DNA from: Allacma fusca
Taxonomy: Eukaryota; Arthropoda; Collembola; Symphypleona; Sminthuridae
Assembly (NCBI GenBank): GCA_947179485.1
Contig: OX359247.1
Span: 38,850,801 to 38,914,800, forward strand
DNA: 64,000 nt
Reading direction: 5' to 3'
Position 1 is the first letter of the stretch. Every line of letters starts with the position of its first letter. A program made the position numbers and the translations under genes. The notes below the pieces were generated by a model. It did not search any database. It was not told where the DNA came from and saw only the letters and a list, made by a program, of their open reading frames with translations. Positions 13,103 through 43,889 of the stretch are shown in pieces.

Positions 13103-13148
13103 AGCGACAGCAGCAGTAACACTTTAGGTAACAGTAACACATTCCAAG

Positions 13149-15660
13149 ATGCGTCCCACTCCAAGATTCGTATGGCTATTTCACGGAATTGGATCTAACA
13201 TTCTGACAAAATTCTTTCTTATTCTGTTTCCTGTATTACTTCTGGTTAATTATGTAATATTTGGAATCGTAGTTCGCCCTATAGTTTGGTTCATATACAA
13301 ACTTTTTCGTCCAGAACTCAAGGGTTTTGTAAACGGTGTGAATGTAGTGTTTACTCAAGGGAAAGATATCAACTATCCCCTCAATATCGTTGGAATTGTT
13401 GTGGCCAATGGGAAAATAACAGCAAGTGACTTCCAGGAATCCATGCAAGAACGTATTTTATCTTTGAAAAAATCAAATGGGGATATTTTGTACGAAGGAC
13501 TTCAGATGTACTGGATAAAATTCCTTGGATACCCTTTTTGGAAAAAGGATAAGGATTTTGATCTGAAAAACCATATTAGGGATTACGACTACAAGGGTTA
13601 CTCTTTACCAAGCGAGCCCTCAGAATTAGACCTACACAATGCTGTAGGTAAATTAATTCAGGCCCCTTGGAAGAAGAACCGGAGCCCATGGGAAATACTT
13701 TTCATTCAAAACTATAAAGGACAGGATAGATCAGTTCACATCCTTCGAATGAATCACGTCTTGGCTGATGGACTGAGTATTTATGAAATGTACAGAGTGA
13801 TCACACAGAGTGAGTGGCGTGTACCCGGTGTCCAACTTTCAGAGCGGGCTTTGTCAAGGTGGGACCGACTTTATCTACTATTTAAAATGCCTTACGATGT
13901 AATAGTAAATCCCTCGGGAATATTAAGTTCCAAAAGACTACCGTTTCAAAAGGATAATACAAATGTGGAAACTATTTTCACAGTGAGTCCAGAAATCTCT
14001 GTTGATGTAATTAAATCGATAAAAAATTACTTCAAAGTGAATTATGCAGCAGTCATCTATTCCGCTTGCTCTGGAGCGATTGCAAGAGCTCTAGAACGTG
14101 CTGGACAAAACGTTCCAAAATATTACATGACTAGTGTTATTATTCCCAAGCCAAAGCATCCAGGGGGTCTCTGCATTCATGCGTGAGTCTCGGATTACAA
14201 TTTATTATATTTATAATTATATGTGATTTGTCTACATTTGTTAATAATTATTTGTATGGATATTACTAATATTTTTAATGTAACTAGTGTCTGTATATTC
14301 CAAATATTAATGGGATAATCTTTTAGAAATGATTTAAACCCTTTACCAGAAATTTCATATGTTTGCTTAGAGCAAAGCACAAAACTTTTGGCTTTCATCC
14401 CCTTCCCCTTGTTTATACCTGTACATACATATAAGGGACAACAATCCTACAGGGTGTTGCTTTTGTTGACCTAGGTCAATATTTCCGGTCACAATTGCCA
14501 GCTACGTAAAGTAAATTCGGGATTATTTGAAACTCAAAATATGAAAACATTTTGACACACTATATAACTTACAGTCACATCACAGTCACATCACCAACTC
14601 CTACAGTCGCCATTTGCAATATTGAGCTGGGGTAAATTAAATAAAGTGCAATAATTGCACAGTGCAGCCAATGCTTATCAATTTGGTAAGCGTATACTCG
14701 TCTTTTAAAGAAAATTGTGTGGTTAAAATATTAATTTTGACATTCTTACAAACTTCCCAACTTTGGTTCACGTTTTGGAACTCACAATGCTGACCTGGCT
14801 CAATGAAATGAGTTTTTGAAAATGGGGAATACAATTGTTTTTAAATGAGAGAACTACATATGTATTTCCCATCATTGTCCCTTATATGAGTTTGAAAATG
14901 TTTTGTGGCACCCCTTACTTGATTAAAATTCATGTAAAATTTGTTTCAGAGAAATATTGGTGGTGGTATTTCCATTGAGGTCCTCATCACCGGAAAAGCG
15001 TCTGAAGAAAGTTCAGAAGTGCTTAAAGACTTTGAGTAATTCCACAGCTGGGGGGACGTACAATGCCCTAGCCAAGACTTTAACTGTTTTTCCATGCAAA
15101 TTGATTTCATCAGGAGCCAAACTTTGGGATAGCATGGCTGGCACACTCAACGTAGCGTATGCGAATGTTGCAGTCACCGTTGGCCCCGATTATTACGACG
15201 GGATTGAGATCTCCGAACTTACAACTGCTAACAGTGTCGTCAATAGTTTGGGTAAGAGATTGTTATGACAAAAAGTAACATAAAAATATACATAATTATG
15301 TAAATACTCCAATATTTGTGTTAGCTTTATTGGGAGTCGTCTCGTGATTTGTAATGATTTGTAATGACTCTTATATGTATATAAATACGTGTGCTTTATC
15401 TTCTATTTGACACAATAATTATCCATTACGAAATATAGTAGTTAGAACAATACAATAGTATTAATACACATTTACAAAGGATAATATTCAATGGGTGATG
15501 TACCTCAACAGGCATGATGATATCCATGGGTGGAATTAATAATAAGCAACGAGTGAGCTTCTGCGTAAACAAAAATATGTTCGAATCAGAAGACATTGGA
15601 AGAAGTATGGGAACGTTTTTTGCAGAAGAGATTCAAGCGTTAGTGAATGCAACTACATGA
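13149..15660 (+). CDS. WS/DGAT-type O-acyltransferase, copy B (3 exons)
   Basis: Exons are 13149-14182, 14950-15251 and 15512-15660, giving 494 aa, in phase, with every splice site at the same codon as in copy A. The active-site motif is NHVLADG, as in A. The protein differs from A at scattered positions (for example LFHGIGSNILTKF near the N-terminus) and shows no disabling change. A transposon lies directly upstream and may have altered its expression. The probable function is the same as copy A, membrane acyl-CoA-dependent ester synthesis. Confidence 0.85.
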
Positions 15661-17172: not shown

Positions 17173-18392
17173 ATGTCTTTACCTACTCAAGATATTATCT
17201 TCAGTTCTGTGGAGAAAATGTATCTATCACCGAAAGCAGGTCGATTACGTCGAGTTGCTACTTCTGGATTAAATTTTGCTGTAGTATATCCCGTGTTGAT
17301 TGTATTGGGTAGTCTGCTGTCATTGATCTTTGTCCCCGCTGTTCCAATTGTGTGGATACTATCAAAGATTTTCCGTCCAGACCTAATCGGTTTTGTGGAA
17401 TCTGAGAAATCAATATTCATCCAAGGAGAGTCTAATAATTCTCCATCAAATGTCGTTTGTCTTTTCATCATGGCTGGGGCTATCAAAGCGGATTCTTACA
17501 TTCAGCATTTTCAAGAGCGTGTTTTTACACTCAAGCAACCCAATGGAAAGTTACTGTATGAGGGCTTCCAATTTTTCTGGACCCAGTACCTTGGATTTAC
17601 ATTTTGGAAAAAGGATGAGCGTTTTGACCTGAGAAATCACGTGAGGGACTATGATTACCAATCAGTTCCGTTGCCAAGCTCACCTGCGGATGCAGATTTA
17701 GAGAATGTGGTGGGGAGCATAATCAAAGCTCCATGGAAGCCTGAGCAAAGTCCCTGGGAGATTCTGTTCATCCACAACTACCAAGGGACGGGGAATACCG
17801 TCAAAATGCTTAGATTCGACCATGCGCTTGCGGATGGGTACAGCATCATTCAATTTTTTAGGGTTATTACACAAAGTGAGTGGCGTGTTCCGAATGTGCA
17901 CCTCTCACAGAGAAAGTTGTCTCCGTTGCAGAGACTAACTTTAGGATTTAGAATCATTAATGATTTATATTTTTCTGGGAAACAACTTTGGGGCCAAACA
18001 AAACTTCCGTTTCATAGGGAGAGTAGAAAGCAGGAACTAATTTTTTCAATGAGTCCAGCAATTCCTGTTGATATCATTAAGTCCATAAGAAAACATTTTA
18101 ATGTGAGTTACGCTGCTGTATGTTATGCTGCTGCTGCGGGGGCAATCGCACGTGCATTGGAACTCACCGGAGAAAAAGTTCCGAAAGAGTATGTCACAAA
18201 TGTGGTCTTGCCCAGGTCGAACCATCCTGGTGGACTTAGCATTCATTTGTAAGTTAATTGTGAGCTGATATAATAATTATTTAATAACTATAGAACGTAT
18301 ATTTTATAAACAAAAATTTCATGCATGATTCAATTTTTGTTCGATGTTTTAAAACGACAGGATTATTTTTTTCCAGAAATGTGTTACCTGGA

Positions 18393-18702
18393 AGTAGAGT
18401 GTTTGACCATATTACCAATGGTATTCCTTAACAAACCCATCGGGCAGTAATGGTAACCCGTCAGGTTCCCCATGTTAAGTGCATACACATGTACATAGTA
18501 CAGCTTTCACACATACACACACACACACACATATATATATACACACACATATACACACACACACACATATACACACACATATACACACATACACACACAT
18601 ACACATACACACACAAACACACACACACACCAATACTGAGAGGGAAAACAAAGCTTGTGACTGTCTCACAAGCAGTCATGTTAACCCACCGGGTTCCCAT
18701 AT
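18393..18702. repeat. Left terminal inverted repeat of the Polinton
   Basis: It pairs with 36345-36523. In the 77 bases from 18426 to 18502 there are six mismatches to the complement of the right end. Pairing resumes after the microsatellite at CACACCAATACTGAGAGG. A motif of the type TAACCCGNCGGGTTCCC occurs twice, near 18454 and near 18680. The arm is longer than the right one because of an AC-repeat expansion. Confidence 0.85.
18513..18632. repeat. (AC)n/(ACACAT)n microsatellite inside the left terminal repeat
   Basis: About 120 bases of ACACAC and ATACAC units lie where the right arm has only a few bases, so this is a lineage-specific expansion. Several long open frames called here are repeat artefacts. 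Confidence 0.95.
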
Positions 18703-19480
18703 GATTTACAATGGGAGAGGGTCTACAGAGCACTTACTGTGACTCTCCCATGTCCAACAAACAACGTCCAAGGGTAAAGTACACTTAGTATTCCATTACA
18801 ACGTTCCATATATACACGTGAGCGTATATATGCATGTAATTTGGGGATAATGTTTGTGTAAAGGCTCCAACTTTGTCTCAACTGGCACGGAAGCAATAAA
18901 CCAGCAATTATAAAGCATCACAGCTCAAACATCTATAGCTGGACTCAAATCCAGAAATGGGACGTTTCCAAGGGCCATTTCTTGAAAATAAGACAGCACA
19001 GACATTTGATATTTATTTCTTCATTTCTTCAATATTTCTAGAGATAATTGGTGAGAGAGTACTTAAAGATATCAAAAACAGCTTTAAATTTGGGGAAGCT
19101 ATAATAATTCAATTTTATTGAAATATTTGACACTTCTGGAAAGTAAAATCAAGAAATTTGATATTTAAAATACCAACGCAAAGTTTGGAACTAATTTTGT
19201 GCCCAACTCAAATCTCTCACACTTTCCTTGAAAACTGAGAGAGTACTTTATTGTCCACAAGCCCAGCACCCAAATTTCAAGGGTACTTCCCAGTCTCAGT
19301 ACTGAGACCAAGCATTTGAAGTTCCAATTCTCCAGTGATCACTAGTACTTTTTCTCCTGCCCAAACTTTTTGAAGTTTGAATTCTTCACAGTTTATTCCT
19401 ATATTTCTTCCCTAATTTTTATTTTGAACTTGAATTCACCACTGAACACTTATTCCTCTACTAATTATATTTTTGATAAA
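18703..19480. other. Left leader region of the Polinton, no gene
   Basis: About 780 bases between the terminal repeat and the first start codon. It should hold the promoter of the zinc-finger/polymerase transcript. No motif can be assigned with confidence. Confidence 0.5.
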
Positions 19481-22269
19481 ATGGAAGGACAAGACTACGA
19501 CAAACAAAAGTTTGTCCTTATTGTGAGTTGGATATGTCGTTCTTGCAAAACGCACTTCCCAGTGGAACGAATATTGGAGCATTCCAATATTGTGCATAAC
19601 TGTAAGTTCACAGATTCCCACAAGTGTTTACATCAATACATGTACAGTGCAAAGTTTAAGTGCAAGCGTTGCTGCAACTTTTTTGCAAGCACAGCATTAG
19701 CTGTTCATACGGATAATTGTTGGAACGATGACGAGAGAATTTTTCGCGAGGTCAAGATTCCACATGTCTGTCAGTCGTGCAATCAAGTAATTCCAGGTAA
19801 GAGATTTTATGTATAAAAACTACAGTTATAACACTTGAATGTAAAATGATTGGATATAGGTTAAACCACGCATGTATTGGAGTAGGTATTCTTATTGTTT
19901 GTTTGTTTAAAAATTATTAGATGTTGGAGAAGCTGGTACAACTGCTGAGAGTACAAAACCAGAGCCGATAGCACACTTTTCAGGAGCTGCGCCAACTGGG
20001 AGGATTACATCCCCAGTGTCGGAGGAGTTACAACAGCTCTATGATGACGATACTCTGGACCATCCTTCTAAAATAGGTACTATTTTAATGACTTATGTAT
20101 TTGTAGATATTAGCAAACTGACTTTACATTTAGTGACAATTAACAGGAACGCACAACACATGATGATATTTTAAACAATTATGTAATTATTACAGATGTA
20201 GTCGAAATTGAGTCAAGTGATGAGGAGCACCCAGAGACAGTCAACCCCAAGCAGGATCAGCAAACCAACTGGAAGAATTTTATGAAAAGTCGGGCTGCCC
20301 TGCAATCACGTAAGCTGTACAAATATTTCCAAGATTGAACTTGTATTTTTAAACTACAAAACAGGAGCAAGCAAATTCTATTATTAATATTAGTAGTAGT
20401 ATTAAAACAAAATTATTTTAAATACAGACTTAGCCGAAGTATGCAGGACACCTCCCCCTAATAGAAAAGTATGTGAATTTGAATGTTTTTCCCTGTTAAC
20501 TATTTTATAGAGATTACTATTACATACACATAAGATGATAGTTGTAACCAGTGCCACTTTTATTTTTTTGTATTTACTAGGCTCCGAAAACACCTGCAAC
20601 AGAGGTGAAACCCTGCAAAGTGGAATTGAGGCGTCTTCCTCCGAAGAGATTTCTCTTTGTTCGACGGACAGTCACAAAAAAAGCAATGGAAAATGTCATG
20701 GCAGAGGACACAGACAGCGACACGACCGTGGATCCAAAGCAGTCGATTGTCAACAGACACCTGGGAGATTCAGACCACTCCATGCAAGACGATCAAGTCG
20801 AATTCATACCAGCTGTTCAAAAGAAACGTCGACGCATTCTTATCGAAGACGACGAGAGCGAGGAGGAGGAAAAAGTGAGACTTGTTTGTATTCATTGTAT
20901 TAATTAAATGAAATGAAGTATATTAATTAAATGAAATCAAGTATATTAATTAAGTGAAATGAAGTATATTAATTAAATGAAATCAAGTATATTAAGTAAG
21001 TGAAATGAAGTATATTAATTAAATGAAATCAAGTATATTAATTAAATGAAATCAAGTATATTAATTAAATGAAATCAAGTATATTAATTAAATTAAATCA
21101 AGTATATTAATTTAATTCAATCACGTATATATTAATTAAAATAAGTCGAGTATATTAATTAAATTAAAGCAAGTATATTAATTATATTAAATTAAGTACA
21201 TATATATTAAATCAATTAAAACAACTATATTAATTAAACGATATCACAGCTTACGTATTTATTAGGTATATTAATTAAACATTATACTAATAATTCTAGA
21301 CGATAGACAAGAACATGGCAGAGATGTTTTTGGACGACGAAGCAGTAGAGAGCGATCTCGTGACAAGCGAGGACGAACTAGAAGAAGACGATTGTCACAG
21401 CACAACAAGCGAGGAGGAAGTCGACAGCGGGGCAGCCGTAATAGAAAACGTGGGAAAAGGTCCTCCTCCAGCAGCAGCAGTTACACAAGCCGTAGCAGCC
21501 ACAGGAACACCAGCTGCAGACACAGACGATTCACTGAATACAAACGTCGGAACACCGCCAAGTATAATTCCTCCAGCTCTAATTCTGGAGATTGGAGAAA
21601 CGTTTCATCGCAAGCCCACACAAAACGAAAGTCTAAACGACACAGTGCTCTTGTTAGCAAAAAAGATCGCCCACATCCGAGATGTATTAGACAGTGTCAA
21701 ATCAGGAATAACCGAATCCACCAAACAGGGAGAGTTCAATCAAAGGATTGTGACAGGTGTAGAAGAGGTAGAGCACAATCACATAGCTGCGTTTGTGAAA
21801 GAGACCCAGAGCACACCCACCGCGGAAGATGTGGAGGAAACTCTTCACGGTCCGATACCCGAAGACGTTCACAACGATCAACAGGAGATAGAGGAAGAGA
21901 CAGACAGAGTAATAATGATGAAATCCATAATACGCTCAACCGAGATTCAGGACCTAGCAAGCGTCATTACGGTAATCCATGTTCACATTAGTAGCGTATT
22001 CTGCACCAATAATTAAACGAATTGTTTAACAATGAAGTACCTTTGTACATTTATAATAAATACTTATGGGGAAAATACAACTGTTCAAGGATTCAAACGT
22101 TTGAATCTCTGTTTTCAATAATTACAGTTTGCATTGCGTAGCGTGAATATTATAAAGTACTAAGTATACCTCTTCTTATCAATTGTAGAAACTGCACTTG
22201 GAGCTGGAAGGCATCAAGTACAAGTTGGCGGAGCAGTCTCAAGAGAGGCAAGAGATGAACAAAGACTGA
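19481..22269 (+). CDS. Seven-exon Polinton gene: zinc-finger/acidic protein, 557 aa
   Basis: Exons are 19481-19796, 19921-20076, 20196-20309, 20428-20468, 20581-20874, 21300-21971 and 22189-22269. All have GT/AG borders and compatible phases; the total is 1,674 nt. Exon 1 carries Cys/His clusters (CRSCKTHF, CKRCCNFF, CQSCNQV) resembling zinc fingers. Exons 2-6 are acidic and probably disordered, with a basic patch PPKRFLFVRR in exon 5 and a helical part LLLAKKIAHIRDVLDSVK in exon 6. Exon 7 is a short coiled coil ending at TGA 22267-22269, 29 bases before the polymerase ATG. I do not recognise the family. A terminal-protein or replication-accessory role is a guess from position. Exons 5-7 are also open in a second frame that leads into polymerase if exon 4 (41 nt) is skipped; see findings. 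Confidence 0.65.
20897..21240. repeat. About 23-bp tandem repeat in Polinton intron 5
   Basis: Roughly fifteen degrading copies of a unit like ATTAATTAAATGAAATCAAGTAT fill most of the 425-nt intron 20875-21299. They keep that intron long and very AT-rich next to the dual-frame exons. Confidence 0.9.
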
Positions 22270-22298
22270 ATTCGGAAGCAGCTGTCGCAGCAGGTAGC

Positions 22299-25200
22299 AT
22301 GGGAGCGAGTGACAATCAAAGCCATGATCAACTCCTCACAACATCAACTCATGAACAAATGCAAACAACCCCATGCAATAACAATAGTAATTTACATGCA
22401 GAAAATTTAAATTATATTGATGAAGGTGTTGTTGATTCGGACGTAGATGGAAATGTACATAATGTGAATAGAGTGCTCGGTAATGATTATTCTTTTAATC
22501 CAGATAATCCCGATTATATTCAAACATTAAACCTCTTAAAACAAAATAACGAAGGCAATGATAGTTTGCAGCATAGGGAAGGTAGTCGAATTAATGTAAA
22601 TAGTAGTACTTCTGAAAGTGAGAATTTAAGTGGAAACGTTTCCAATAAACACAACAATGAGGGAGATGTAAATATACAGAACAGTGATTTTGTAAATACA
22701 ACCGCCCCACCAAGTCCTACCAACTCACAGGTTTCACACGATTCTATCAACAGTCCATATGATATTGAAATGGCAAGCAATGCTGCCGGGGCTTTTAATA
22801 ATAATGAGTTATTAATTAATATAAACCGGAAAAATTGTAAATTTTGTCCACTCTGTCTCATTACGTTTCCCACGGTCACATCATATGATATTCATGTACA
22901 TACAAACCATCAAGACATGACAAGTGGAAGGGATTCTATAAATGTTATAAACACACCCATGGCACAAGGTTCTGAAGTAAGACTACCAGAGTTAAGCCTT
23001 ACACGTCGTGTCATGGGAGATTTTCATAGGGTGTATGAAGTAAATCTAAGGGAAGCTAATCATACATTTAAAGATATTAAAGGCCTTTTTCAAATGTATA
23101 AAGCCATATTTCGATCTTTATTTGAAGAATTATTTCGACTTCACAATACTTTTAAGATTGAATTTAGTTTAAAAATTCAAATGTCAAAACCTTCAAATGA
23201 AGAAGGCGTGCCCCGAGTTGTTCGATCTTTTTATTTCAACTCTCACCTACGTTCCCTCATGCATATATCAATGCTTGAGTATATTATAGAGGCAGTTGTA
23301 ACTCTTCTGGAGTTACAACTGGAAGAATTTATAAATCTAGGATCGGGATGGGAGTTGGAATTTATCGAGTCCCTTAGATTAGAAATTAATGATGGCGGTA
23401 ATTTAAAAGGAGGCACATACTTACCTAATCCTCCTTTATTAGATGGAAAAAATGCTGTTATCAATTATAGTACTTCTGACAATGAATGTTTTACCTGGGC
23501 AATAGCGGGCGCCCTGTGTAAACGTTATTTAAGAGTAAATTCAAGAAAAAATGTAATTACTGCAGCAGAAATTGCTGAGAAAAAGAAATTGGTATGTTCC
23601 AGTTTGTCATATCCTGTGACAATAGAGCAAATACCAAAATTCTTGGAAGATAATAAGAGCATCAGCCTGAATATCTATGGCTATGAAGAGATTGATAATA
23701 ACGTCACTGTGTCACCTTTATTTGTTACGGCAGAGTGCAGGCCAAGCCACATCGATTTGTTATTAATTATTGCCGAAAATGGAAATTCCCATTACACATT
23801 CTTGCGACAAAGTGTCGATAATCCAACAGCCGGTTTAAGCCGGTTGTTAGGTTTCAAAGGACGTGGCAGCAGGTATTATTGCAAGTTTTGCTTGCAGGGG
23901 TTTTCATCAGAATGTAATCACGACTCACATCAAGAGTTTTGTGCAGCCTTAGGGTTGCAGCGTGTAACATATCCTAATAATGACTACAAAAAATTCAACT
24001 CATGGAACAAAACAATTAAATCCAGTTTTGTTGTTTATGCAGACTTCGAATGCTTGCTCGTTCCAAGCGGTCCACAGGTTAATACTTGTGACTGTGATGT
24101 TTTTATTTGCCAGCAGCATGCTCCTAGCTCCAATACATCAACCCATGTTCCCTGTGCCTACTCTATCGTAATTAAAGATATGGAAGGTAGAGTGTATGGG
24201 CATACTATTTCGAATCATGGCGATAATGTAGCCACGGAATTTATTACGAAGCTAATAGAAGCAACACGCTGGTGTTTCGACGTCATCAAGGAAGAAATTC
24301 CCTGTAGACAGTTAACCAAATGTGAATGGGAATCCAAAGAACGAGTCTCTCACTGTGGTATTTGTTCAGCTCGGTTCGCACCACGTGACATTAGGGTGAA
24401 ACATCATTGTCATGTTACTGGTGAATTTCTTTCTTGGAGTCATCAAAAATGCAATCAACTTGCACAAATACCTAAACATATTCCAGTTGTTCTTCATAAT
24501 TTCAAAAATTATGATTCACACTTTATTTTGCAAGGTGTTAATGACGAACTTGTCTCCAAGATTACAGGCATTCCTCAAACAAGGGAAAAGTTTCTTTCCT
24601 TTTCTTTGTTTACAAAACAAGACAACGAGTTGAGATTTATTGATTCTTGTCAATTTTTGAACGCTCCTTTAGCCACTTTGGTTGAAAATGCTGTCAAAAA
24701 TGGAACTGACATGTTTCGAACCACCAAACAAACATTTTCCAATTCTGGTGACGTTAATCTTTGCTTCCGCAAGGGTGTATTCCCATACTGTTGGCTGACA
24801 GATATAACCAAACTCAATGAAAGATGTTTACCCCCAAAGTCGGAATTCTTTTCGGATTTAACCGGGGAAGGAATTTCTGAGGAAGACTATGTTCATGCAC
24901 AGAATGTTTGGACTTCCTTTGAATGTCAAACGATGGCAGATTATTGCAATCATTACTGTTTGTTAGATACTTGTCTCCTTGCTGACATTTTTGAAGCATT
25001 TCGTGAAAAGTGTATGATTGATTTTTCTTTGGAAGCAGCCAGTTATTTTGGTTTGCCAGGCTTTGCATTTGATGCAGCGCTCCGCACTTCAAAGGTTGAA
25101 TTAGAATATTTAAAGCAAGAGGATATGTATAACTTTGTTGAGCGGGCTATACGTGGAGGAATATGTAATGTAGGTTCCCTGCGCAAAGCTGAGGCAAATA

Positions 25201-26588
25201 ATCCCTATATGGGTGATGAGTACGACCCCAGAAGCCCTACAAAATATATAATAGCATGGGATGCTAACAATTTATATGGTAAGGGGTTATCAGAGTATTT
25301 ACCAACACGTGGTTTTCGTTGGGTCCAACAAGAACCTAAATGGAAGAACCGTACTCTTGAAGAAATTGAACACGACATTAAATCAATGAGCGATAAAGGA
25401 GATTACGGATATTTTTTTGAAGTTGATTTATCATACGACAAATCTCTTCACAAAGAACATTCCGATTATCCTTTGGCTCCTGAAAGAGTGTCAATATCTC
25501 CAGACCAACTGTCTGATTATCAACGAGAACAAGTAGAAAAACTGGGGATTTCTCAAAGTACATTTAACTGTAAAAAATTGATTTCAAACCTACTCCCTAA
25601 ACGCAATTATGTTTTGCATTACAGAGCTTTGAAATTGTACTTGAAGCTCGGCATGAAATTACTTCATGTTCATAGAGTTTTAAGTTTCAAGCAGGAGCCC
25701 TGGTTGAAACCTTTTGTTGATCATTGTACTTCAAGGCGTAGGGATTCAGTAACAGGCTTTGATATTGCGTACTATAAGTCCTTAATAAATATAAATTTCG
25801 GAAAATTAATAGAAAACAAACGTAAGTACATGAACGTTCACTTTGTTTTTACCAGACAGAAAGCACAGCAACTTATTAAGAAACCGACAGTGCAGCATAT
25901 CTCGCACATTGAAGGTTCTAATATTTTGGTGTTCTTCATGAAAAGGTTAAGTGTATGCCTAGACAAGCCTATTTATGGAGGTGCATGTTGTCTGGACGAT
26001 AGCAAGGTTACAATGTACGATTTCCATTATAATTATGTACGTCCGAAATATGGCGATCAGGCCCGTCTGCTTTTTACGGACACTGACTCACTGAATTATG
26101 TAATTGAGACTAACGATATTTATCATGACATGATTAGGGATAAACAATTATTTGATTTGTCTGAGTATTCACTTTTAGATAAATTAAAACCCAAGGAGCT
26201 TCTCGATAATACTAATAAAAAACGACTAGGAAAAATGAAAGACAATTATTCGAATTTTATCATTGTGAAATGCATTGCCCTCAAACCAAAAATGTATGCA
26301 ATGCAATTAATAAATAGTCTGGACCTGAGTCAGTTGGAGATTAAAAAATGTAAGGGGATTAAGAAATGTGTGGTTAAGAATAAATTAAAATTCCAAGATT
26401 ATTCGAATGTTCTGGAAACCAATATTAATTTTTCCTGCAATATGACTATAATAAGTAGTAACTTCCACAATGTGGAAACTTACACAGTTAGGAAATCTGG
26501 TCTTAATGCTTTCGACTCAAAACGGTATTATTCGAGCAAGTATACCTCTCTCCCATTTGGACATTATGAAACATTACGACAAGTGTAA
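22299..26588 (+). CDS. polB: Protein-primed family B DNA polymerase of the Polinton
   Basis: 1,429 codons from the ATG at 22299. The exonuclease has Exo I DFE at residues 582-584, Exo II around HNFKNYD (733-739) and Exo III YCLLD (886-890). The polymerase has motif A DANNLYG (988-994), motif B NINFG (1164-1168) and motif C DTDS (1261-1264). The N-terminal third has a C2H2-type finger near 183-205, a DNECFTW block at 394 and another Cys/His finger near 528. A further Cys/His block ending HHCHVTGEF, characteristic of Polinton polymerases, precedes Exo II. It would replicate the element by protein priming. The frame stays open upstream of the ATG to 22164, through exon 7 of the preceding gene, so the N-terminus may be longer through splicing. 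An AATAAA signal is at 26667-26672. All catalytic residues look intact. Confidence 0.95.
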   Translation: MGASDNQSHDQLLTTSTHEQMQTTPCNNNSNLHAENLNYIDEGVVDSDVDGNVHNVNRVLGNDYSFNPDNPDYIQTLNLLKQNNEGNDSLQHREGSRINVNSSTSESENLSGNVSNKHNNEGDVNIQNSDFVNTTAPPSPTNSQVSHDSINSPYDIEMASNAAGAFNNNELLININRKNCKFCPLCLITFPTVTSYDIHVHTNHQDMTSGRDSINVINTPMAQGSEVRLPELSLTRRVMGDFHRVYEVNLREANHTFKDIKGLFQMYKAIFRSLFEELFRLHNTFKIEFSLKIQMSKPSNEEGVPRVVRSFYFNSHLRSLMHISMLEYIIEAVVTLLELQLEEFINLGSGWELEFIESLRLEINDGGNLKGGTYLPNPPLLDGKNAVINYSTSDNECFTWAIAGALCKRYLRVNSRKNVITAAEIAEKKKLVCSSLSYPVTIEQIPKFLEDNKSISLNIYGYEEIDNNVTVSPLFVTAECRPSHIDLLLIIAENGNSHYTFLRQSVDNPTAGLSRLLGFKGRGSRYYCKFCLQGFSSECNHDSHQEFCAALGLQRVTYPNNDYKKFNSWNKTIKSSFVVYADFECLLVPSGPQVNTCDCDVFICQQHAPSSNTSTHVPCAYSIVIKDMEGRVYGHTISNHGDNVATEFITKLIEATRWCFDVIKEEIPCRQLTKCEWESKERVSHCGICSARFAPRDIRVKHHCHVTGEFLSWSHQKCNQLAQIPKHIPVVLHNFKNYDSHFILQGVNDELVSKITGIPQTREKFLSFSLFTKQDNELRFIDSCQFLNAPLATLVENAVKNGTDMFRTTKQTFSNSGDVNLCFRKGVFPYCWLTDITKLNERCLPPKSEFFSDLTGEGISEEDYVHAQNVWTSFECQTMADYCNHYCLLDTCLLADIFEAFREKCMIDFSLEAASYFGLPGFAFDAALRTSKVELEYLKQEDMYNFVERAIRGGICNVGSLRKAEANNPYMGDEYDPRSPTKYIIAWDANNLYGKGLSEYLPTRGFRWVQQEPKWKNRTLEEIEHDIKSMSDKGDYGYFFEVDLSYDKSLHKEHSDYPLAPERVSISPDQLSDYQREQVEKLGISQSTFNCKKLISNLLPKRNYVLHYRALKLYLKLGMKLLHVHRVLSFKQEPWLKPFVDHCTSRRRDSVTGFDIAYYKSLININFGKLIENKRKYMNVHFVFTRQKAQQLIKKPTVQHISHIEGSNILVFFMKRLSVCLDKPIYGGACCLDDSKVTMYDFHYNYVRPKYGDQARLLFTDTDSLNYVIETNDIYHDMIRDKQLFDLSEYSLLDKLKPKELLDNTNKKRLGKMKDNYSNFIIVKCIALKPKMYAMQLINSLDLSQLEIKKCKGIKKCVVKNKLKFQDYSNVLETNINFSCNMTIISSNFHNVETYTVRKSGLNAFDSKRYYSSKYTSLPFGHYETLRQV

Positions 26589-26792
26589 TACACATGAAAA
26601 CATTGATGTACGATAGTTGTAAATAGTTTGAGTTTGTAACATGATATTTTCTTTGATGTGTTGAATAATAAAAAACCTTGTTAGTTTATATTTGTTGATC
26701 ATTACGATAACATCACCCTTGTGCGTTCTCCTTGGCTTCATACTTGATTTTAATCACTTGGTAATCTGGCAAACCAAAGATTCATTGATAAT

Positions 26793-27476
26793 ATGGCTGA
26801 CACTAATGCTTTTGACTATAATATTTATCACCCAGCAAACATAATTGTTTCCGGCGTATCTCAGGCTGGCAAGTCACAACTTGTCGCACAGCTATTACGA
26901 CGTAGAAATGAAGTAATGTCGCCTGTTCCTAATAACATAATTTATTGTTATGGTGAGAAACAGAGCAAACTATTTGACGATCTAAAAAAGGATTTAGAAC
27001 TTAATGCCAAAGGTCAATTGCAGGATGTGCGTCTTGACTTTGTAAAAGGGCTTGACTTCGATATTCCCGAAGAAAATGACACTCCAACAATTCTAGTGCT
27101 TGACGACTTAATGAACAGTGTGTCAAAAAATAAAACTCTGGTAGACCTGTTTACAAGGGGAAGCCACCACAGATCCATAAGTGTTTTTTTGCTAGTTCAG
27201 AATTTCTTTTTCCCCAACATGCGAACTATTACATTGAACTGCAAGTATTTGATATTAATGAAAAACCCACGTGATAACTCAATAATTAATTTCATTGGAC
27301 GACAAATGAATGCCGGAAAATCTTACAAGTTGCTTGAATATGCGTACAAACATAGTTCTTCCAAACCCTATGGTTACTTATTTTTGGATCTTTCTCAAAC
27401 CCAGAATGAAAAATATCGAATTCGGTCAAGTATATTCCCCGATGAAGACTGTATTGTGTATACAGAGTACAATTAA
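26793..27476 (+). CDS. FtsK/HerA-type genome-packaging ATPase (A32-like)
   Basis: 227 aa, typical length for Polinton packaging ATPases. The Walker A motif is GVSQAGKS (residues 21-28); Walker B is the hydrophobic strand ending in D104-D105 (ILVLDD). A sensor-like region follows with RGSHHRSISVFLLVQN. In virus relatives this enzyme pumps DNA into preformed capsids. It stands 204 bases after the polymerase stop with its own ATG and downstream AT-rich spacer. The gene is intact. Confidence 0.92.
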   Translation: MADTNAFDYNIYHPANIIVSGVSQAGKSQLVAQLLRRRNEVMSPVPNNIIYCYGEKQSKLFDDLKKDLELNAKGQLQDVRLDFVKGLDFDIPEENDTPTILVLDDLMNSVSKNKTLVDLFTRGSHHRSISVFLLVQNFFFPNMRTITLNCKYLILMKNPRDNSIINFIGRQMNAGKSYKLLEYAYKHSSSKPYGYLFLDLSQTQNEKYRIRSSIFPDEDCIVYTEYN

Positions 27477-27639
27477 TTCAAATTAAAAACGTGAACTTGG
27501 CTTAGTCTCCGTACTTGTATGTATTGTAAATATTCCTTTAACAAATGATTAACTCATGTGTTAATGCAAGTAAAGGTATATTGGTATAAATTCCAAAAAG
27601 CTAGTTGCTTTGATTATTTATTCACGAAATCATGTATTG

Positions 27640-28955
27640 CTAGAAATTGATTGCTTTATCTACTTCAACATCATTATCAACACCCCCAATACCAGTTTGA
27701 TCTTTCTGTAAACAAATGTCGGAACACCGATACAAACATTTTAGTAATTCTTCAGCATTTAATTTGTTCTTTATGTAATAGCTAACCAATCTTTCAATTA
27801 GCCAAAGACTACGGCGAATGTCAAAATTAACCGTACGACCCAAACGTTTGACATAAACAAATGTGCGATTTTGCCCCTGAAATGGGACGTCACGATAGAA
27901 ACACTTTAAGAGCCGATATCCCTCTTCTGCATCATTCAGTGTGCGAACAATGCTGTTGCTGTTGTTAATGATTTTTGACACATCTGCACCTTCATCCCCC
28001 GTCGTCGTTCTTCGTGCAGAGTTAGAAGCTGAAAAATTTTCTGTTACATGGTGACCTCGGCTTGATGTTGTAGAAATAGCGTGGTTAATGCCAGGAGCAA
28101 ATATCTTCGGAAGATTTGAATTGTTCTTTGAATATGAAACTAAATATCAATAAATAATCTTACCAAGCATTATTAGAATATTCTAGAAACACAAATGTAA
28201 ATCACAACCTGCATTATCAGCACCCAATCCTTGTTGCTGGTCAAGACAAAATTAAGAACCTCTGTTGAAATATCCTGTAAAGGTACAGAACAAAATTTGT
28301 TGCCATTTTCAAATTAACTTGGACACATTTGGAAATGAAAGTTAAAACTAAGAAAACCGACAAAAATCTTGTTCTATACTCTTACGGAGTTTGGCTGGTA
28401 AATCTTTCCCCAGTTTTGATGCTGAACTAGCTGGACGCAAATTCGCACTAACTAATAATTTCGAATGATGTATAAAAGATTTAGTAACTGCAGATATACC
28501 ACCACCACCAGCAGTAGCACAAGTAGAACTTGGGGATAAGCCATTTATTATATGGTAATGATAGAAAATGCAAGTTTTTACATGTATTCGGAGAGAGCTA
28601 ATAGGAGACCTGGGATATGCTCCTCAGGAATAGCAATTCCATCCCCAATCGCACTTGCGCTTTTATCATTCCAATGTCTCAGATTTAGAAAACCCTTATC
28701 GGATTGGTTGCCGCTCTCCCCGCCCATGTAAATAATCCAACGTTTATCAAGGAATATTCTTGGAGCCACTCTAGTATCGACATCAGCCTCCTTTTTAATT
28801 TCCAAAGCAATAGGTATAGTGCGAAACGTTGTTGGACGTTTTGGTGTCTTGACTTTTCTACTCATTCCAAGTATACTGCTATTGTTAGCAGAACGTTTTC
28901 TATTCTTGACATGTTGATCTTCAAAAATATGTTGATCAACTTCGGCTTGGGCCAT
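27640..28955 (-). CDS. Spliced Polinton gene of unknown function, about 338 aa
   Basis: The minus-strand frames at 28582-28955, 28386-28528 and 27640-28139 join through introns of 53 and 246 nt. All have GT/AG borders and continuous phase, so one 338-aa product is likely. The N-terminal exon has a nuclear-localisation-like KNRKRS. It also has a compact segment around FLNLRHWN and IPEEHIPGLLLAL that loosely recalls PC4-type single-strand DNA-binding folds; that resemblance is weak. The middle is Ser/Ala/Gly-rich. The C-terminal 110 residues are helical and basic (YRLLKCFYRD, SLWLIERLVSYYIKN). The alternative is two separate proteins of 125 and 113 codons. It lies between packaging ATPase and integrase. 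Confidence 0.55.
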
Positions 28956-29143
28956 CGTCAGTAAAATGTCTCTCTGTAGCTCCGTCTAAACACACGACGT
29001 AATCAAGGGTTTGAACTTACACAATTACACAGGCAGTTTCTGGTACTACCCTTTTCCGAAAGTAAGAAGGAGTTTAAACTAAAACGTTTTATACCTTTCC
29101 AAAATTGTGCGAGCAATTTCAACGCTCCTTCCTTGCACATTTC

Positions 29144-30118
29144 TCAATCAGGAATGACAGGTGCTTCAGATTTGCCAATTTTTTGTATATCTTGTTGATA
29201 AGCCCCACCCCAAATTTCCTCTCCTTTCATATCCTTGAGGTAATACATTCTAGGATTAGTCTCACCTATTCTATATATCGTAAAGACTTCTGGATTATAC
29301 GTATACGAATATCCCTTGGCAAACGGGTGCTTTTTTCTATTTAGTAGTACACTATCCCCAATCATAAATTTAGATTTTGGTGGCTTTTTGAGACCTCTCT
29401 CGTCATTTTCGTACAACGAGAAATAAACATCGACTTCATTTTTTTCGTTCACTTGAGATGGCGCCATTTTAATGCTGCGATGATAACTGTTGTTATAATT
29501 ACGAACAATGTCGTCTAAAACTTTTGTATATTTCGTTGAATTATTATGAGTCATCCAACGCGATATTCTAGTCATTAGTGTCCGATGCCATCTTTCAATC
29601 AGAAAAGCTTTCAAATTAGAACCCGTTGTAATTCTTTTTATTTTAAGTTCCTTTAAATGGCCTAAAAAATCCCGATTTATAAATTCCTTCCCCTCGTCGA
29701 ATTGACAATACCTTGGAGGTTTGTTACCAAATTTCTTTAACAACATTTTGAAAGCTTTCAATACAGTCTCTGCCCTCTTGTCTTTAATTTTAACAACGTT
29801 TGCCACTTTTGAGAATCCATCAATTCCTGTTAGTAACCATTTGTAGCCGTTGTTTTGCATTGCGTACTTGCTGAGGTCTAAAAGGTCTATAATATATTGA
29901 TCCCCTATTCCTGGTATCCAAACTCGTCTCCTTTTGAAATTAGATACCACGGGCTTATGCAAGTAATATGCTGGGATCCTCTCAAATGCTTCGTCAATGA
30001 CATTCGACTTGTATTTTTGTTTGGTATTCTTCCGAAAACCGCTTTTCCCAGTATAGCTGGCTTTCAGCCTGGGATTGACATATTGCCTTTTTATGCTTAC
30101 ATGGTCCTTGGTTGACAT
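29144..30118 (-). CDS. int: Retroviral-type (rve) integrase of the Polinton
   Basis: 324 aa. The catalytic triad is readable: D78 in IIDLLD, D141 in QFDEGKEF and E175 in FLIERWHRT, with the last two 34 positions apart as usual in Polinton integrases. Before the core is a conserved block with YYLHKPV and GIGDQY; after it, NYNNSYHRSIKMAPSQVN. The C-terminus (about 250-315) is a small SH3/chromo-like domain with FMIGDSVLLNR and YYLKDMKGEE. It would join the 3' ends of the element to target DNA with a 6-bp stagger, matching the CCTGGA duplication seen here. The frame is intact. Confidence 0.95.
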   Translation of the reverse strand: MSTKDHVSIKRQYVNPRLKASYTGKSGFRKNTKQKYKSNVIDEAFERIPAYYLHKPVVSNFKRRRVWIPGIGDQYIIDLLDLSKYAMQNNGYKWLLTGIDGFSKVANVVKIKDKRAETVLKAFKMLLKKFGNKPPRYCQFDEGKEFINRDFLGHLKELKIKRITTGSNLKAFLIERWHRTLMTRISRWMTHNNSTKYTKVLDDIVRNYNNSYHRSIKMAPSQVNEKNEVDVYFSLYENDERGLKKPPKSKFMIGDSVLLNRKKHPFAKGYSYTYNPEVFTIYRIGETNPRMYYLKDMKGEEIWGGAYQQDIQKIGKSEAPVIPD

Positions 30119-30268
30119 TGCGTTCCAAATTCAGCTTGACTGCGTCAGCATCCACCCCCAAAGAACGCTTAAGTTAAACTAATTCCAAGTTTCTGTGCCA
30201 TACTGTTTCCATCTCTTGTGCTGTCAACATTCTAACATTTTTCTCATACGCCTTGCCAAAATATCAAC

Positions 30269-31355
30269 ATGTCTAAACTTGTTACAAGCGACATTGAGGG
30301 ACTCATCGATATCCTTCAAGCTACATTACCTGCTGGTGCTGCAGCTCCTACCTTGTCTGACATTGATGAAGACTCTGAAAGTGCCATTGAAGAGCTGGGA
30401 CCCATAAATACCACCAACATAATTGTGAAAAAAGGGCAACAAGAAACCGACCAAGGTGTGAGCAAGCTTACTCCAGAAGATGTGGACAAAAAGAAGAAAA
30501 CCGAAGTTGACTCTGGAAAGGGGGAAGACGTGGGCGTAGACAATACAACACCTGTGGGCATTACTGCTGCTTCTGCAGGGGAAGCCGAAACAAGTGGAAG
30601 CGATGACAACTTTGATGATGAAAAGGCTGAACACGACATTATTGAATATCCATGTCGTCGCCCGCAATGTTATCTGTGCGATAAATCTGTTTGTGAATGT
30701 GATTTTGGCTTTAAATGGCGACCGCGTAGCCTGGAAGATTCTGAATCGGCAATTTGTCTACTTGAGGAGCGCATTATCTACTTGGAAAGAATTGCTGAGG
30801 ACCAATGTGCCGGAAGTAAGAGGATTGCTGAGGATGTGGAGGCTCACACCTTTTTGCTGAAGCAAATGCAGCATGTAAGTAGTAGAGTAATAATTGTTTT
30901 GTTTCTAAATAACCCATTATATCTATATTGCAATGGTAGAATACAAACTATTACGAATTAGATATTTGTCATTTGATCGTTTTACGTGGTAGAAAATTGG
31001 ATGGAGGTGTGGTTATGCTGTCAGCGTTCGTGACGAATTGGTTCCTGAAAAACAGCAAGATCGACGTAGTGTGTGGATTGGCAATATGTTGAGACAGATT
31101 GGAATCCTCATTCGCGGTCGCTATTCTGGAGTGGATCTGAGTATATCAAACATTGATATTGGTGGACAGGACATGAAAAAAATATTTGTTATCCGATTTC
31201 CATTTAATTTACCTGTTTGCTACATTCTCCGCGGTTTCGGGAGTATGCGTCCATTTGTCCGAGTGGATGAAATCAATCCCTACCTAGACGATCAGGGGCT
31301 TACAGAGTATTTCTCGATTTACAGCAAAATATGTACGGGTGACACGTGTGAATGA
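30269..31355 (+). CDS. Two-exon Polinton protein, 322 aa, unknown function
   Basis: Exon 1 is 30269-30874 (donor GTAAGT) and exon 2 is 30993-31355, phase 0. The first 130 residues are acidic and low-complexity. A Cys cluster CRRPQCYLCDKSVCECDF follows and may bind zinc. Next comes a coiled coil (LLEERIIYLERIAED). Exon 2 encodes a compact domain with YAVSVRDELVPE and FVIRFPFNLPVCYILRGFG. It is divergently placed from the integrase, whose start is 150 bases away, so the two may share a promoter region. An AATAAA signal is at 31397-31402. No known family is assigned. Confidence 0.7.
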
Positions 31356-31420
31356 TTGCTTATATGATGTGTAACATGTACCCATATTATCATTTTAATA
31401 AATGGTTTTGAGAGGTCACA

Positions 31421-31768
31421 ATGTCCAAGAAAATTTTGAAGCATTCCCAATTTTTACACTATATTAATTCATGTTCACCAAAAGTTAGACAGTTTATTTT
31501 GAAGCATGCGAATGAGCAGGAGTTGGATTCATTATCTGAGTGTGTGTTAAATATTGTGAAGGGGAACGTACCCATAAGGCAGACTACATTTAAACATCTC
31601 AGACCATTTAGAAAGGATTTGTGCAAGCTGGCATGTAAAACTACCTGTAGTCATAAACAAAGGAGACGCATATTAAACCAAAGTGGGGGTGCTATTGTGC
31701 CATTGATCTTATCCACGGTTTTACCTTACCTTGTGTCATATATTACATCTCGCGGAGGAAATGAGTAA
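31421..31768 (+). CDS. Small Polinton structural-type protein with C-terminal hydrophobic helix
   Basis: 115 aa. The pattern is one seen in many Polintons: a helical basic N-terminus with CVLNIVKGNVP, then KQRRRILNQSGG and a hydrophobic tail AIVPLILSTVLPYLVSYI. The QSGG followed by A (residues 87-91) fits the cleavage preference of adenovirus-type proteases (N/Q-x-G-G before the cut). A role as a processed core or membrane-active capsid component is inferred. Its stop overlaps the start of the next gene by 8 bases (ATGAGTAA). Confidence 0.75.
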   Translation: MSKKILKHSQFLHYINSCSPKVRQFILKHANEQELDSLSECVLNIVKGNVPIRQTTFKHLRPFRKDLCKLACKTTCSHKQRRRILNQSGGAIVPLILSTVLPYLVSYITSRGGNE

Positions 31769-32468
31769 ACGTATGAAGTTGGTATCTGAAGCAGACTTTG
31801 AATTATTTAAGAAACTCAAATCTAATAAAATACATAACAGCAATGTTGTTGAGCTGGAGACTCAGAAAAAACATGCTCTTGACTTGGACGATGACGTCAT
31901 ACCTAGAGATGTTAAGGCAATGTGGTACCAGAACGTTTCCCGAGAAATTGAAAATCGCGCCAAGGCTGAAGAGAACAAACCTGTTCTAGTTCGTCCAATC
32001 GGAAGCGAGCCTGGGGTTGCACAACAAAACACAATCCCACAAGCAACAATAACTTCCCCATTATTATCATTGCCCTCAACACCGCAAGCGTCTACTATTG
32101 TGCAACCTCAAAGCGTATCCTCCCCGGGGATTACTATAGACCAGGTGCTAGCAGCTGTTTTCTCAAAACGCGCTAAGCAAATAATTGCATTCTTAAATAT
32201 GCATAGTATTGGATGGAATGGAAGCGGCGAAGTAACAATTCGAATGAGACGAATTCCACAATCAAGTTATGTTAGCGTTTTGCGTGCTCTAACTGACCCC
32301 AGAAAAAACAATTCGGCCATAATTGGTTACAAAGACGTACAAACAGTTTTAAAAGGGTTGGAATTGTCGAATTCTGGATTATCTGATGCCAGCATTGCAA
32401 AAATTAAATCCAAAAATGTATTTCGCATTGTGAGAAAATCGCCCAGAATAAAATGGAAAACATATTGA
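31761..32468 (+). CDS. Conserved Polinton protein with C-terminal helical domain, 235 aa
   Basis: The start is the ATG at 31761, overlapping the previous stop; a longer frame to 31731 lacks ATG. The N-terminal half has KAMWYQNVSREIENR. The middle is Pro/Ser/Thr-rich and likely flexible. The C-terminal domain has AKQIIAFLNMHSIGWNGSGE and then SSYVSVLRALTDPRKNN, a layout shared with a widespread Polinton-linked family whose function is unproven. The overlap with its neighbour suggests coupled expression or differential splicing from a common transcript. Confidence 0.72.
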   Translation: MSKRMKLVSEADFELFKKLKSNKIHNSNVVELETQKKHALDLDDDVIPRDVKAMWYQNVSREIENRAKAEENKPVLVRPIGSEPGVAQQNTIPQATITSPLLSLPSTPQASTIVQPQSVSSPGITIDQVLAAVFSKRAKQIIAFLNMHSIGWNGSGEVTIRMRRIPQSSYVSVLRALTDPRKNNSAIIGYKDVQTVLKGLELSNSGLSDASIAKIKSKNVFRIVRKSPRIKWKTY

Positions 32469-32482
32469 TATATTCATATTAC

Positions 32483-33019
32483 TTATTGTTTTCGTAATTT
32501 ATTACAGCATTGATTTACAGATTGGTTGACAGTACAGTTTGGGGTATTGGAAAACGCGCAGTTTTTATAACTTACAAACCTTTTGACCATTTTATCATTA
32601 TCCCTCAAGTTATTTGAATAATTTCGATAAAAAGAACGAAATGTGCACCCTTTATTCATATGATACAGAAAATATATGGCATGTTGGCCACAAACATTTG
32701 AATCGAAAGCTTGAACTTGTTTTTTTCTTTCCCATACTTTCCCACACAATCGTTTTGCAAAATGTTTAAAGTAAGTATCGTAGTTTTTGATTCCTAATCC
32801 ATATGAGCAGAAAAAATATAAACGAGATGATTTATTTCGCATAAAAAAGCCACACCAATGATTACCGGGTTGGGAAGCAATGGAATCATTCACTATTAGA
32901 CATATAGGATATTTTGTAGCATCTACATCTACAAGTTTATCACATGGTATTACGTCATAATTAACCTTCTGCCGTTTAAACATTTTACTAAGAAAGTTTA
33001 AAATCTGAATTGTGTCCAT
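32483..33019 (-). CDS. Adenain-like (C5) cysteine protease
   Basis: 178 aa. The His is in PGNHWCGFF (H54). The Gln-Cys pair is in KKQVQAFDSNVCGQHA (Q103, C110), with the same 7-residue spacing as the oxyanion Gln and nucleophile Cys of adenovirus protease. The acidic third member normally lies in a DSFG or EPFG-type motif; here the motif reads FFCSYG, so the acid position is Cys (C71). Family role: maturation cleavage of capsid precursors, with candidate QSGG sites in two nearby proteins. It begins 3 bases after the capsid protein ends. The rest of the fold looks complete. Confidence 0.85.
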   Translation of the reverse strand: MDTIQILNFLSKMFKRQKVNYDVIPCDKLVDVDATKYPICLIVNDSIASQPGNHWCGFFMRNKSSRLYFFCSYGLGIKNYDTYFKHFAKRLCGKVWERKKQVQAFDSNVCGQHAIYFLYHMNKGCTFRSFYRNYSNNLRDNDKMVKRFVSYKNCAFSNTPNCTVNQSVNQCCNKLRKQ

Positions 33020-33022
33020 ATT

Positions 33023-34348
33023 TTAATCAGTGGCGCTAAAATCTTTGAATGAAATGTTCTTGTTAGAATCTATTTGCATGACGCTTCCATACTCTGCATA
33101 CACCACCACAGTTACAGCAGCTTTGAGAGACTTTGCAAATTTCATTTCTATTTTTATTGATCCAAAGTTGGGGATCGTAAAGCCCTCACGGATTTGTCCA
33201 ATATTGTAGACATACAACGCACAAAAATCCTTAAACTCCTGTTGCGTTATATCTACTCCCACATCCTGGTTGGCAATGCCCAATCCGTCAAATATATTTT
33301 CGTACGCTTGCACAAACAGATCGTTTGCGTAGTCCAAGTGAAGAGGTAGATGAGAGGTTTGCTCTCCGTTCACAGTCAAGTGCATATATTTTAAGTCGTG
33401 ATTTTCAAACAGAAATGGGTTTTGGAGATAATCCCCCATGAACGTTTTTGAAGAAACCAATCCCACAATCACTCGAATTGGTAATAAACCAACAAGTAAG
33501 TTTTCGTTATGGTTTTGAAGATTTCCTGGTCCGATTGTAAAGGTTTTGAGTTCAACACGTCTCATAGGCATTAGAATTGTGCTCCCATTTTCCCACGTCT
33601 TAAAATGTGTCAGCATAAGTGATGGAAGGACAGTTTTTTTCTTGACAATCAATTTTGCCTCCAAAACTTCAACAGCATATTTCTCGTCCTTGGCAGCCAA
33701 CAGGCAAAACTCATCTGGTGCTCTATCAAACTGGATACGCATGTCTATGCCAGGTATAAGCCATTTATTTTGGAAGAACAAATCCACAAACGGGCGGCCA
33801 ATCATTTCAAAAGGTTTGCTACCTTTACTTAAATCAAACCGTTTATGAAATCCATCTTCATCATTAGTTTTGATAGATTTTCCATCCTTCTCTTTGTAAA
33901 ACATTGTACAAGTCGACTGGCTTTTCTTAAATTCTTTGGAGTATGACAGCAGGGTCTCAAGATATGCCCTGTAGGCATAATTATTGTTGGAAGGAGTGAT
34001 AAGGGTTTCGTTCAAGTGTACCGAGACTTGTTGGAAGCACGAATGTAGAAAATTATTAACCGGAGCAACAACCACATCTGGCTTAAGGTCTTGACCCTTG
34101 GGGTCCACAATTTTACACTTTAAATAAAGTAGAGTTTCATCCAGTTCTACATACTGATTGTCATTAGCTTTAACAAAAAATAGTATGGGAGCTAGCTTAT
34201 CTGAAATAGAACTCGAAGGGTGATATTCACTACAGAATGAACCATTTACAGAAACGTCCACGGGAGCATCGGAAAAGAGATCCGTTTCACTCCTTACAAA
34301 CGTGTATGGTATGTTCTTAGCAACTGGTATTCTCTTGACCTTTGGCAT
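33023..34348 (-). CDS. Major capsid protein (double jelly-roll)
   Basis: 441 aa, the usual size for the Polinton double jelly-roll capsid protein. Recognised by the conserved N-terminal run (LFSDAPVDVSVNGSFCSEY, then APILFFVKANDNQYVELDE) and by NNFLHSCFQQVSVHLNET, features shared by Polinton capsids and the many host-genome proteins derived from them. C-terminal strands include DFCALYVYNIGQIREGF. It would form the hexameric capsomers of an icosahedral shell. The frame is intact from an ATG 6 bases downstream of the preceding gene. Confidence 0.92.
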   Translation of the reverse strand: MPKVKRIPVAKNIPYTFVRSETDLFSDAPVDVSVNGSFCSEYHPSSSISDKLAPILFFVKANDNQYVELDETLLYLKCKIVDPKGQDLKPDVVVAPVNNFLHSCFQQVSVHLNETLITPSNNNYAYRAYLETLLSYSKEFKKSQSTCTMFYKEKDGKSIKTNDEDGFHKRFDLSKGSKPFEMIGRPFVDLFFQNKWLIPGIDMRIQFDRAPDEFCLLAAKDEKYAVEVLEAKLIVKKKTVLPSLMLTHFKTWENGSTILMPMRRVELKTFTIGPGNLQNHNENLLVGLLPIRVIVGLVSSKTFMGDYLQNPFLFENHDLKYMHLTVNGEQTSHLPLHLDYANDLFVQAYENIFDGLGIANQDVGVDITQQEFKDFCALYVYNIGQIREGFTIPNFGSIKIEMKFAKSLKAAVTVVVYAEYGSVMQIDSNKNISFKDFSATD

Positions 34349-34354
34349 GTTGTT

Positions 34355-34876: not shown

Positions 34877-34883
34877 TTTGTGC

Positions 34884-36344: not shown

Positions 36345-36523
36345 CCCCGGCGGGTTAACATTACAAAGAGTCACAAGCTTCGCCTCTCAGTATTGGTGTG
36401 AGCGCTCCAAAGATGTACTATGTACATGGGTATGTACATAACATGGGGAACCCGACGGGTTAGCATTACTGCACGATGGGTTTGTTAAGGGAGTACATTG
36501 TAGGACTGGTACAACACTCTACT
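36345..36523. repeat. Right terminal inverted repeat of the Polinton
   Basis: Complement of the left arm, without the AC expansion. It contains two copies of the subterminal motif (GGTACCCCGGCGGGTTAAC near 36350 and GGGGAACCCGACGGGTTAG near 36445). It ends AACACTCTACT at the CCTGGA target duplication. Confidence 0.88.

Positions 36524-43850: not shown

Positions 43851-43889
<39 letters not shown>

Follow-up and report, generated by a model that had tools for sequence, protein, structure and literature searches.

The window analysed in the present study is a stretch of 64,000 nucleotides (nt) from the springtail Allacma fusca (contig OX359247.1, positions 38,850,801 to 38,914,800; C10:38850801-38914800 in the genome-wide searches, which covered 392,743,791 bases in 91 contigs). 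It contains a Polinton element, the left gene of which has seven predicted exons and runs into an open reading frame (ORF) for DNA polymerase B (PolB). Exons 5-7 of this gene are open in two frames of one strand, the acidic frame F1, which ends in exon 7, and the frame F2 (F1 minus 1), which leads into the polymerase. The features of the locus, in positions of the window, are as follows.

18393-36523, no strand assigned: Polinton element, delimited by left-flank homology, inverted repeats and target duplication.
19481-19796, forward strand: exon 1, 316 nt, ending in phase 1; zinc-finger-like leader common to both predicted products, placed by its ORF and the donor CAG/GTAAGA.
19921-20076, forward strand: exon 2, 156 nt, phase 1-1.
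20196-20309, forward strand: exon 3, 114 nt, ending in phase 1; exon 3 of the diverged relative R1 likewise has 114 nt.
20428-20468, forward strand: exon 4, 41 nt, the putative frame-setting exon (inclusion would give F1, skipping F2).
20581-20874, forward strand: exon 5, 294 nt, very likely dual-coding; F1 from 20581, F2 from 20583.
20676-20682, forward strand: A AAA AAA heptamer in the F1 frame, a possible -1 slip site; missing from R1, and one A shorter in a 98% identical copy.
20898-21244, forward strand: 23-bp minisatellite (repeat family D2), making up much of intron 5.
21300-21971, forward strand: exon 6, 672 nt, very likely dual-coding; F1 acidic, F2 Arg/Ser-rich.
22189-22269, forward strand: exon 7, with the end of F1 (TGA 22267-22269) and a coiled-coil-like tail (by eye); F2 continues into PolB.
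22164-26588, forward strand: PolB ORF, in F2; first ATG at 22299.

All six introns have GT-AG borders, read directly from the sequence. The F1 phases after exons 1 to 6 are 1, 1, 1, 0, 0 and 0, and exon 4, whose length is 2 mod 3, alone sets F1. Each of exons 1-3 ends in phase 1, so that a direct join from any one of them to exon 5 leads into F2. The initial annotation had described exons 5, 6 and 7 as open in two frames, F2 leading through both junctions into the PolB ORF, itself open from 22164. This was confirmed: F2 has no stop in any of the three exons, while the third frame has 2, 26 and 1. Its frame arithmetic was also correct, the phase-1 end of exon 3 leading into F2 when exon 4 is skipped and into F1 when it is included, as were the sizes of the predicted products, 557 amino acids (aa) for the seven-exon F1 message and 1,983 aa for exons 1-2-3-5-6-7-PolB. 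In exon 1, the zf_UBZ family scores 25.0 bits, slightly under the cut-off of 25.6, and relatives of this exon exist elsewhere in the genome.

Dual coding at this locus is very likely. For a stop to arise in F2, a T-ending F1 codon must be followed by one that begins with AA, AG or GA. Such T-ending codons account for 0/127 of the positions before AA, AG or GA codons in exons 5-7 and for 55/218 of those before other codons (Fisher, 7e-13); the same counts in the PolB core are 88/256 and 252/605. T occupies 16% of third positions in exons 5-7, compared with 39% in the PolB core. The initial annotation had cautioned that F2 could be a by-product of Glu/Asp codon runs, and both frames are indeed compositionally biased. 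However, four null models with the F1 protein fixed, comprising synonymous resampling under three codon usages and permutation of the gene's own codons, gave an open F2 in 0/20,000 runs each, with 17-37 F2 stops expected in total, which rules out a shadow of Glu/Asp codons. Since codons starting with GA raise, not lower, the odds of an F2 stop, the concern about an Arg-rich shadow is answered, and it is hardly credible that F2 is a meaningless shadow of the acidic frame. In the reverse test, with F2 fixed, F1 was open in 7,782/20,000 permutations, and piecewise in 340 to 1,000 of 1,000 permutations across the window, R1 and sister exons. Openness of F1 is thus common by chance, so openness argues strongly for F2 and weakly for F1, and the case for F1 rests on conservation.

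Diverged relatives of the element, designated R1-R5, were compared with the window. R1 (C1:48903118 on) encodes a PolB that is 74% identical (12 stops), a zinc-finger-like exon that is 46% identical and an exon 6 that is 32% identical. Its gene plan, assigned by eye, has seven exons with the phases of the window, of 313, 171, 114, 68, 258 and 552 nt, followed by a counterpart of exon 7 from 2166 of L037. In R1, too, F2 is open through exons 5-7 and enters PolB, with 0 stops vs a mean of 17; none of 20,000 null runs was stop-free, which again argues against a shadow frame. An F2 stop lies shortly upstream of the exon 5 acceptor in R1. The exon 4 homologues measure 68, 71, 68 and 71 nt in R1, R2, R4 and R5; that of R3, with CG in place of the acceptor AG, has 71 nt, and all these lengths are 2 mod 3. 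In R2, F2 is open in exons 5 and 7, and exon 6 is stop-free piecewise around indels (by eye). Between the window and R1, F2 identity in exon 6 is 0.291 vs 0.178 expected from F1 (z 4.5, 0/1,000), and F1 identity exceeds the expectation from F2 in exon 5 (z 4.6) and exon 6 (z 5.5), with 0/1,000 each.

Five further Polinton families in the genome carry an F1/F2 exon with the same -1 offset. Upstream sequence was retrieved for five other PolB groups, including L052 (family B), L053 (A2) and L055 (C), in which the link from F2 to PolB was followed; groups D and E come from fourteen further short stretches, where the dual exon alone was examined. In each of families B, A2 and C, a leader exon that looks finger-like by eye is accompanied by an acidic F1 exon, which F2 overlaps in the -1 relation. 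F2 and PolB form a single ORF of 1,506 aa in B, and in A2 and C the donor, acceptor and frame are compatible with a phase-1 join to the PolB exon, which in A2 has no ATG upstream of its C2H2 finger (by eye). When the A2 F2 protein was used as a query, 59 matches were obtained, 47 of which lack an internal stop; several of the 59 are identical copies or fragments of a single locus. The motif D/N-EQPGCSFW was found in the F2 of B, A2 and C, with all differences after the first residue silent in F2, whereas F1 over the same stretch varies (MNNPDAASG in B, MNNQDVAFG in A2 and MNSQDVVSG in C).

Given F1, the five sister representatives contain 0 F2 stops vs means of 4.6-8.1, and stop-free runs among 20,000 null runs numbered 12 for L053, 20 for L052, 0 for L055, 0 for L067 and 1 for L060, which also speaks against a shadow frame. 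Among 11 measured copies, L058 and L070 have one F2 stop each. The identity test comprised seven of the ten pairs of these representatives, leaving out L052-L055 (poor alignment, F1 25%, F2 13%), L052-L067 and L060-L067. F2 identity in the tested pairs was 0.24-0.55 vs 0.16-0.25 expected (z 3.0-9.6, at most 3/1,000), and F1 given F2 reached z 1.5-8.3 (at most 13/1,000, except 97/1,000 for L053-L060). The differences between B and A2 are distributed over the codon positions as 59/55/80 in the dual exon (149 codons) and as 180/115/444 in the PolB core (870 codons). Both frames are conserved beyond what the other frame explains, the exceptions being F2 in exon 5 and F1 in L053-L060.

Several observations weigh against this evidence or against a two-protein reading of the gene. 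F2 identity in exon 5 between the window and R1 is 0.234 vs 0.171 expected (z 1.6, 76/1,000), so that conservation between these two beyond expectation is seen for F1 in exons 5 and 6 and for F2 in exon 6, but not for F2 in exon 5. Most changes in the first third of exon 5 affect third codon positions of F1 (R1-R2 4/1/11; R1-R3 5/2/9), as if F1 alone mattered there, and the first 27-29 codons are F2-open in 2,968/20,000 (window) and 3,216/20,000 (R1) permutations, which is only weakly unexpected. The beginning of exon 6 displays the same third-position pattern (R1-R3 2/3/12), so the pattern in exon 5 is not decisive; most segments of the R2 and R4 pairs were dropped from the codon-position comparison in exon 6 because of indels. 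Divergence by codon position along exon 5 was too sparse to locate the F2 entry point there. The third frame also exceeds expectation in sister pairs (z 2.2-7.8), as would be expected from nucleotide conservation in general, and z is 0.7-3.0 in four single-frame PolB controls (highest 2/1,000). In addition, R1-R5 are partly degenerate, with one F2 stop in exon 5 of R3 and F2 broken in R4 and R5. Finally, the surroundings of ATG 22299, with A at -3 and G at +4, are favourable for initiation (by eye).

The last point bears on the possibility that PolB is expressed from its own promoter and starts at ATG 22299, the upstream part of F2 not being translated as a fusion. The public gene model P0001 of Allacma fusca, named DNA-directed DNA polymerase in UniRef, likewise begins at a Met inside the ORF, about 340 residues in. 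No other protein was found for residues 1-560 of the PolB ORF; P0001 is 97% identical over the 39% covered (7,990 candidates scored), and the public annotation probably misses the N-terminus of the polymerase. An own promoter is nevertheless quite improbable, as no stop interrupts F2 in exons 5-7, its exon 6 part is conserved, the position of the ATG is not common to R1 (by eye), and in A2 no ATG lies upstream of the C2H2 finger in the PolB exon.

Exons 5-7 offer no ATG in F2, and the exon 5 acceptor of R1 is closely preceded by an F2 stop; it follows that F2 needs an upstream entry. It is somewhat likely that the switch in the window family is the skipping of exon 4, the skipping itself being something we infer from the sequence. 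If exon 4 were skipped, the phase-1 leader exons would join exon 5 in F2, giving a protein composed of the leader, the Arg/Ser-rich part and PolB, that is, the polymerase itself. If it were included, exons 5-7 would be read in F1 up to 22269, giving an acidic accessory protein without the polymerase. Both proteins would share the zinc-finger-like N-terminus. Omission of exon 4 was the sole entry route found to fit both the window and R1.

Ribosomal frameshifting by -1 from the seven-exon message, at U UUU UUA in the sister families and at A AAA AAA in the window, would provide another route into F2. The heptamer pattern of -1 frameshifting is X XXY YYZ (PMC3498833). TTTTTTA stands at the start of F2 in 15/17 sister exon copies from five families, and in 13/17 it is in frame and followed by over 40 open codons; L059 and L066 carry it, the frame being broken soon afterwards, and L063 and L065 lack it. 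An F2 stop lies directly before TTTTTTA in A2 (3/3), E (3/3) and L052 of B, but 5-7 codons further upstream in L064, C and D. In all families seen, F2 is the -1 frame, and all four leader exons of L052, L053 and L055 are of phase 1-1, so that skipping cannot switch the frame there. The window, too, has an in-frame A AAA AAA; yet F2 is open upstream of it as well, and exon 5 of R1 contains no slippery heptamer. Downstream of the site, simple folding, which does not cover pseudoknots, predicted no stable structure (z -1.43, +1.14, -0.41, +0.56 and +1.12 in the sisters, +0.75 in the window). Frameshifting is an unlikely explanation for the entry into F2.

Alternative 3' splice sites (tandem acceptors), instead of exon skipping, also seem a rather improbable route. 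A phase-1 join to a second AG gives F2 in L052 (+22 from TTTTTTA), L053 (+19) and L060 (+22, by eye), L055 has AGs 5 and 11 nt past the main acceptor, and R1-R4 have an AG within exon 5, 5 nt from its start, use of which would lead into F2 even if exon 4 were retained (by eye). On the other hand, inspection by eye revealed no comparable AG close to the exon 5 acceptor of the window, and the positions vary between families. Two further candidates were rejected for the sister families. The acceptor TTTTTTAG, considered as an F2 entry, gives F1 from phase-1 leaders. For a phase change of the leader exons in L052, L053 and L055, the sole phase-2 donor scoring at least 6/9 is one in exon 1 of L053, at 1833. 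While exon 4 skipping is preferred for the window family, the data suggest that the sister families apparently switch the same frame pair differently, by an in-frame TTTTTTA or a second acceptor.

Two PolB groups bear on the question of which product is older. Both L054 and L056 have a finger-like exon that closes with a phase-1 donor, the frame is kept by an acceptor within the PolB ORF, and no second frame is present (by eye); L056 has one acidic exon between the finger-like exon and the PolB acceptor. As the phase-1 fit between leader and PolB in these two groups recurs as the same join in the window, the polymerase form was taken as the older one and F1 as an overlay. Judged by architecture, not by a tree, the leader-PolB form is probably the ordinary, older product and the acidic F1 protein a later addition. 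The initial annotation had proposed a cassette exon toggling between an accessory protein and a polymerase fusion. Of this proposal, dual coding, the continuity of F2 with PolB and the skip arithmetic stand, and the arrangement recurs in R1; the emphasis is reversed, the PolB form being probably older, and the cassette is not general, the sister families differing.

The element itself shares several attributes with Polinton/Maverick elements. Its terminal inverted repeats (18393-18507 and 36409-36523) are 115 nt long and 83% identical, and the bases at 18387-18392 and 36524-36529 are identical, forming a 6-bp target duplication. Homology begins at the left border, 18393, in 5/5 other copies with a fetched left flank. 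In Pfam comparisons the rve integrase scored 39.7 bits (cut-off 32.6) and the adenovirus-type cysteine protease 24.0 bits as Peptidase_C5 (cut-off 21.3); a candidate A32-type packaging ATPase reached 21.1 bits as Pox_A32, under the cut-off of 22.8, and the capsid candidates at 33026-34351 and 34887-35789 matched no Pfam family above cut-off. PolB was assigned by name and motifs. Its ORF, a candidate protein-primed family B DNA polymerase, matched no Pfam polymerase family, nothing near an NCBIfam cut-off and no structure in the Protein Data Bank (PDB), but DFE, DxxNLYG and DTD, which we take to be PolB motifs, are invariant in four families. No homologues of residues 1-330 of L026:1-4110 were found outside this genome, and none in viral contigs; the collections searched did not include metagenomes and prokaryote genomes.

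Exon 6 is present in at least six copies in the genome (counts are lower bounds): five are 100% identical and lie on three chromosomes, and one is 98% identical (loci L001-L006, contigs C5, C10, C12 and C1). The 98% copy is older and has three stops in PolB. The five perfect matches and the single 98% match imply that the element has probably moved recently. At least 53 PolB-like matches were scored in the genome (855 first-look candidates), 5/53 with internal stops; Polintons are abundant in this genome, and many look intact over the PolB stretch. Outside the element, three ORFs to its left (436-1491, 13128-14186 and 17173-18252) match a wax ester synthase/diacylglycerol acyltransferase domain and perhaps form a host gene cluster, and nested minisatellites with periods of 79 bp and 31 bp occupy 42593-43952.

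In the adenovirus E2B region, the polymerase gene is reached via spliced leader exons, and the messages for the terminal protein precursor (pTP) and polymerase (Pol) share a far leader exon. The shared segment is short, and the two messages encode separate proteins. The locus described here is similar in that the polymerase would be reached via spliced leaders, but differs in that two frames of one strand overlap over about 1 kb. Human immunodeficiency virus (HIV) uses U UUU UUA for gag-pol -1 frameshifting. The sister families resemble retroviral gag-pol in their in-frame U UUU UUA, here a putative slip site, with the polymerase in the -1 frame; the differences are that no downstream structure was found and that the window family lacks U UUU UUA. 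The polinton-like virus of Oxyrrhis marina (PMC12721341) also has a PolB with an N-terminal extension according to its abstract, which, however, presents it as a helicase-PolB fusion and does not refer to a second frame. No PolB leader with dual coding is described in the titles and abstract openings of the Polinton/Maverick publications that best matched splicing and frameshift, and no publication on springtail Polintons was listed.

A wider reading may be put forward tentatively. A group of animal Polintons may keep a dual-coding exon at the PolB N-terminus over deep divergence, the switch being a cassette exon in the window family and U UUU UUA frameshifting or tandem acceptors in the sister families, so that the ratio of the acidic finger protein to the polymerase would be set post-transcriptionally. 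Long dual-coding stretches are rare and hard to prove, and here several families in one genome serve as replicates. If true, this would show how a Polinton could control its polymerase level, and would represent a natural case of one overlapping frame pair under different switches.

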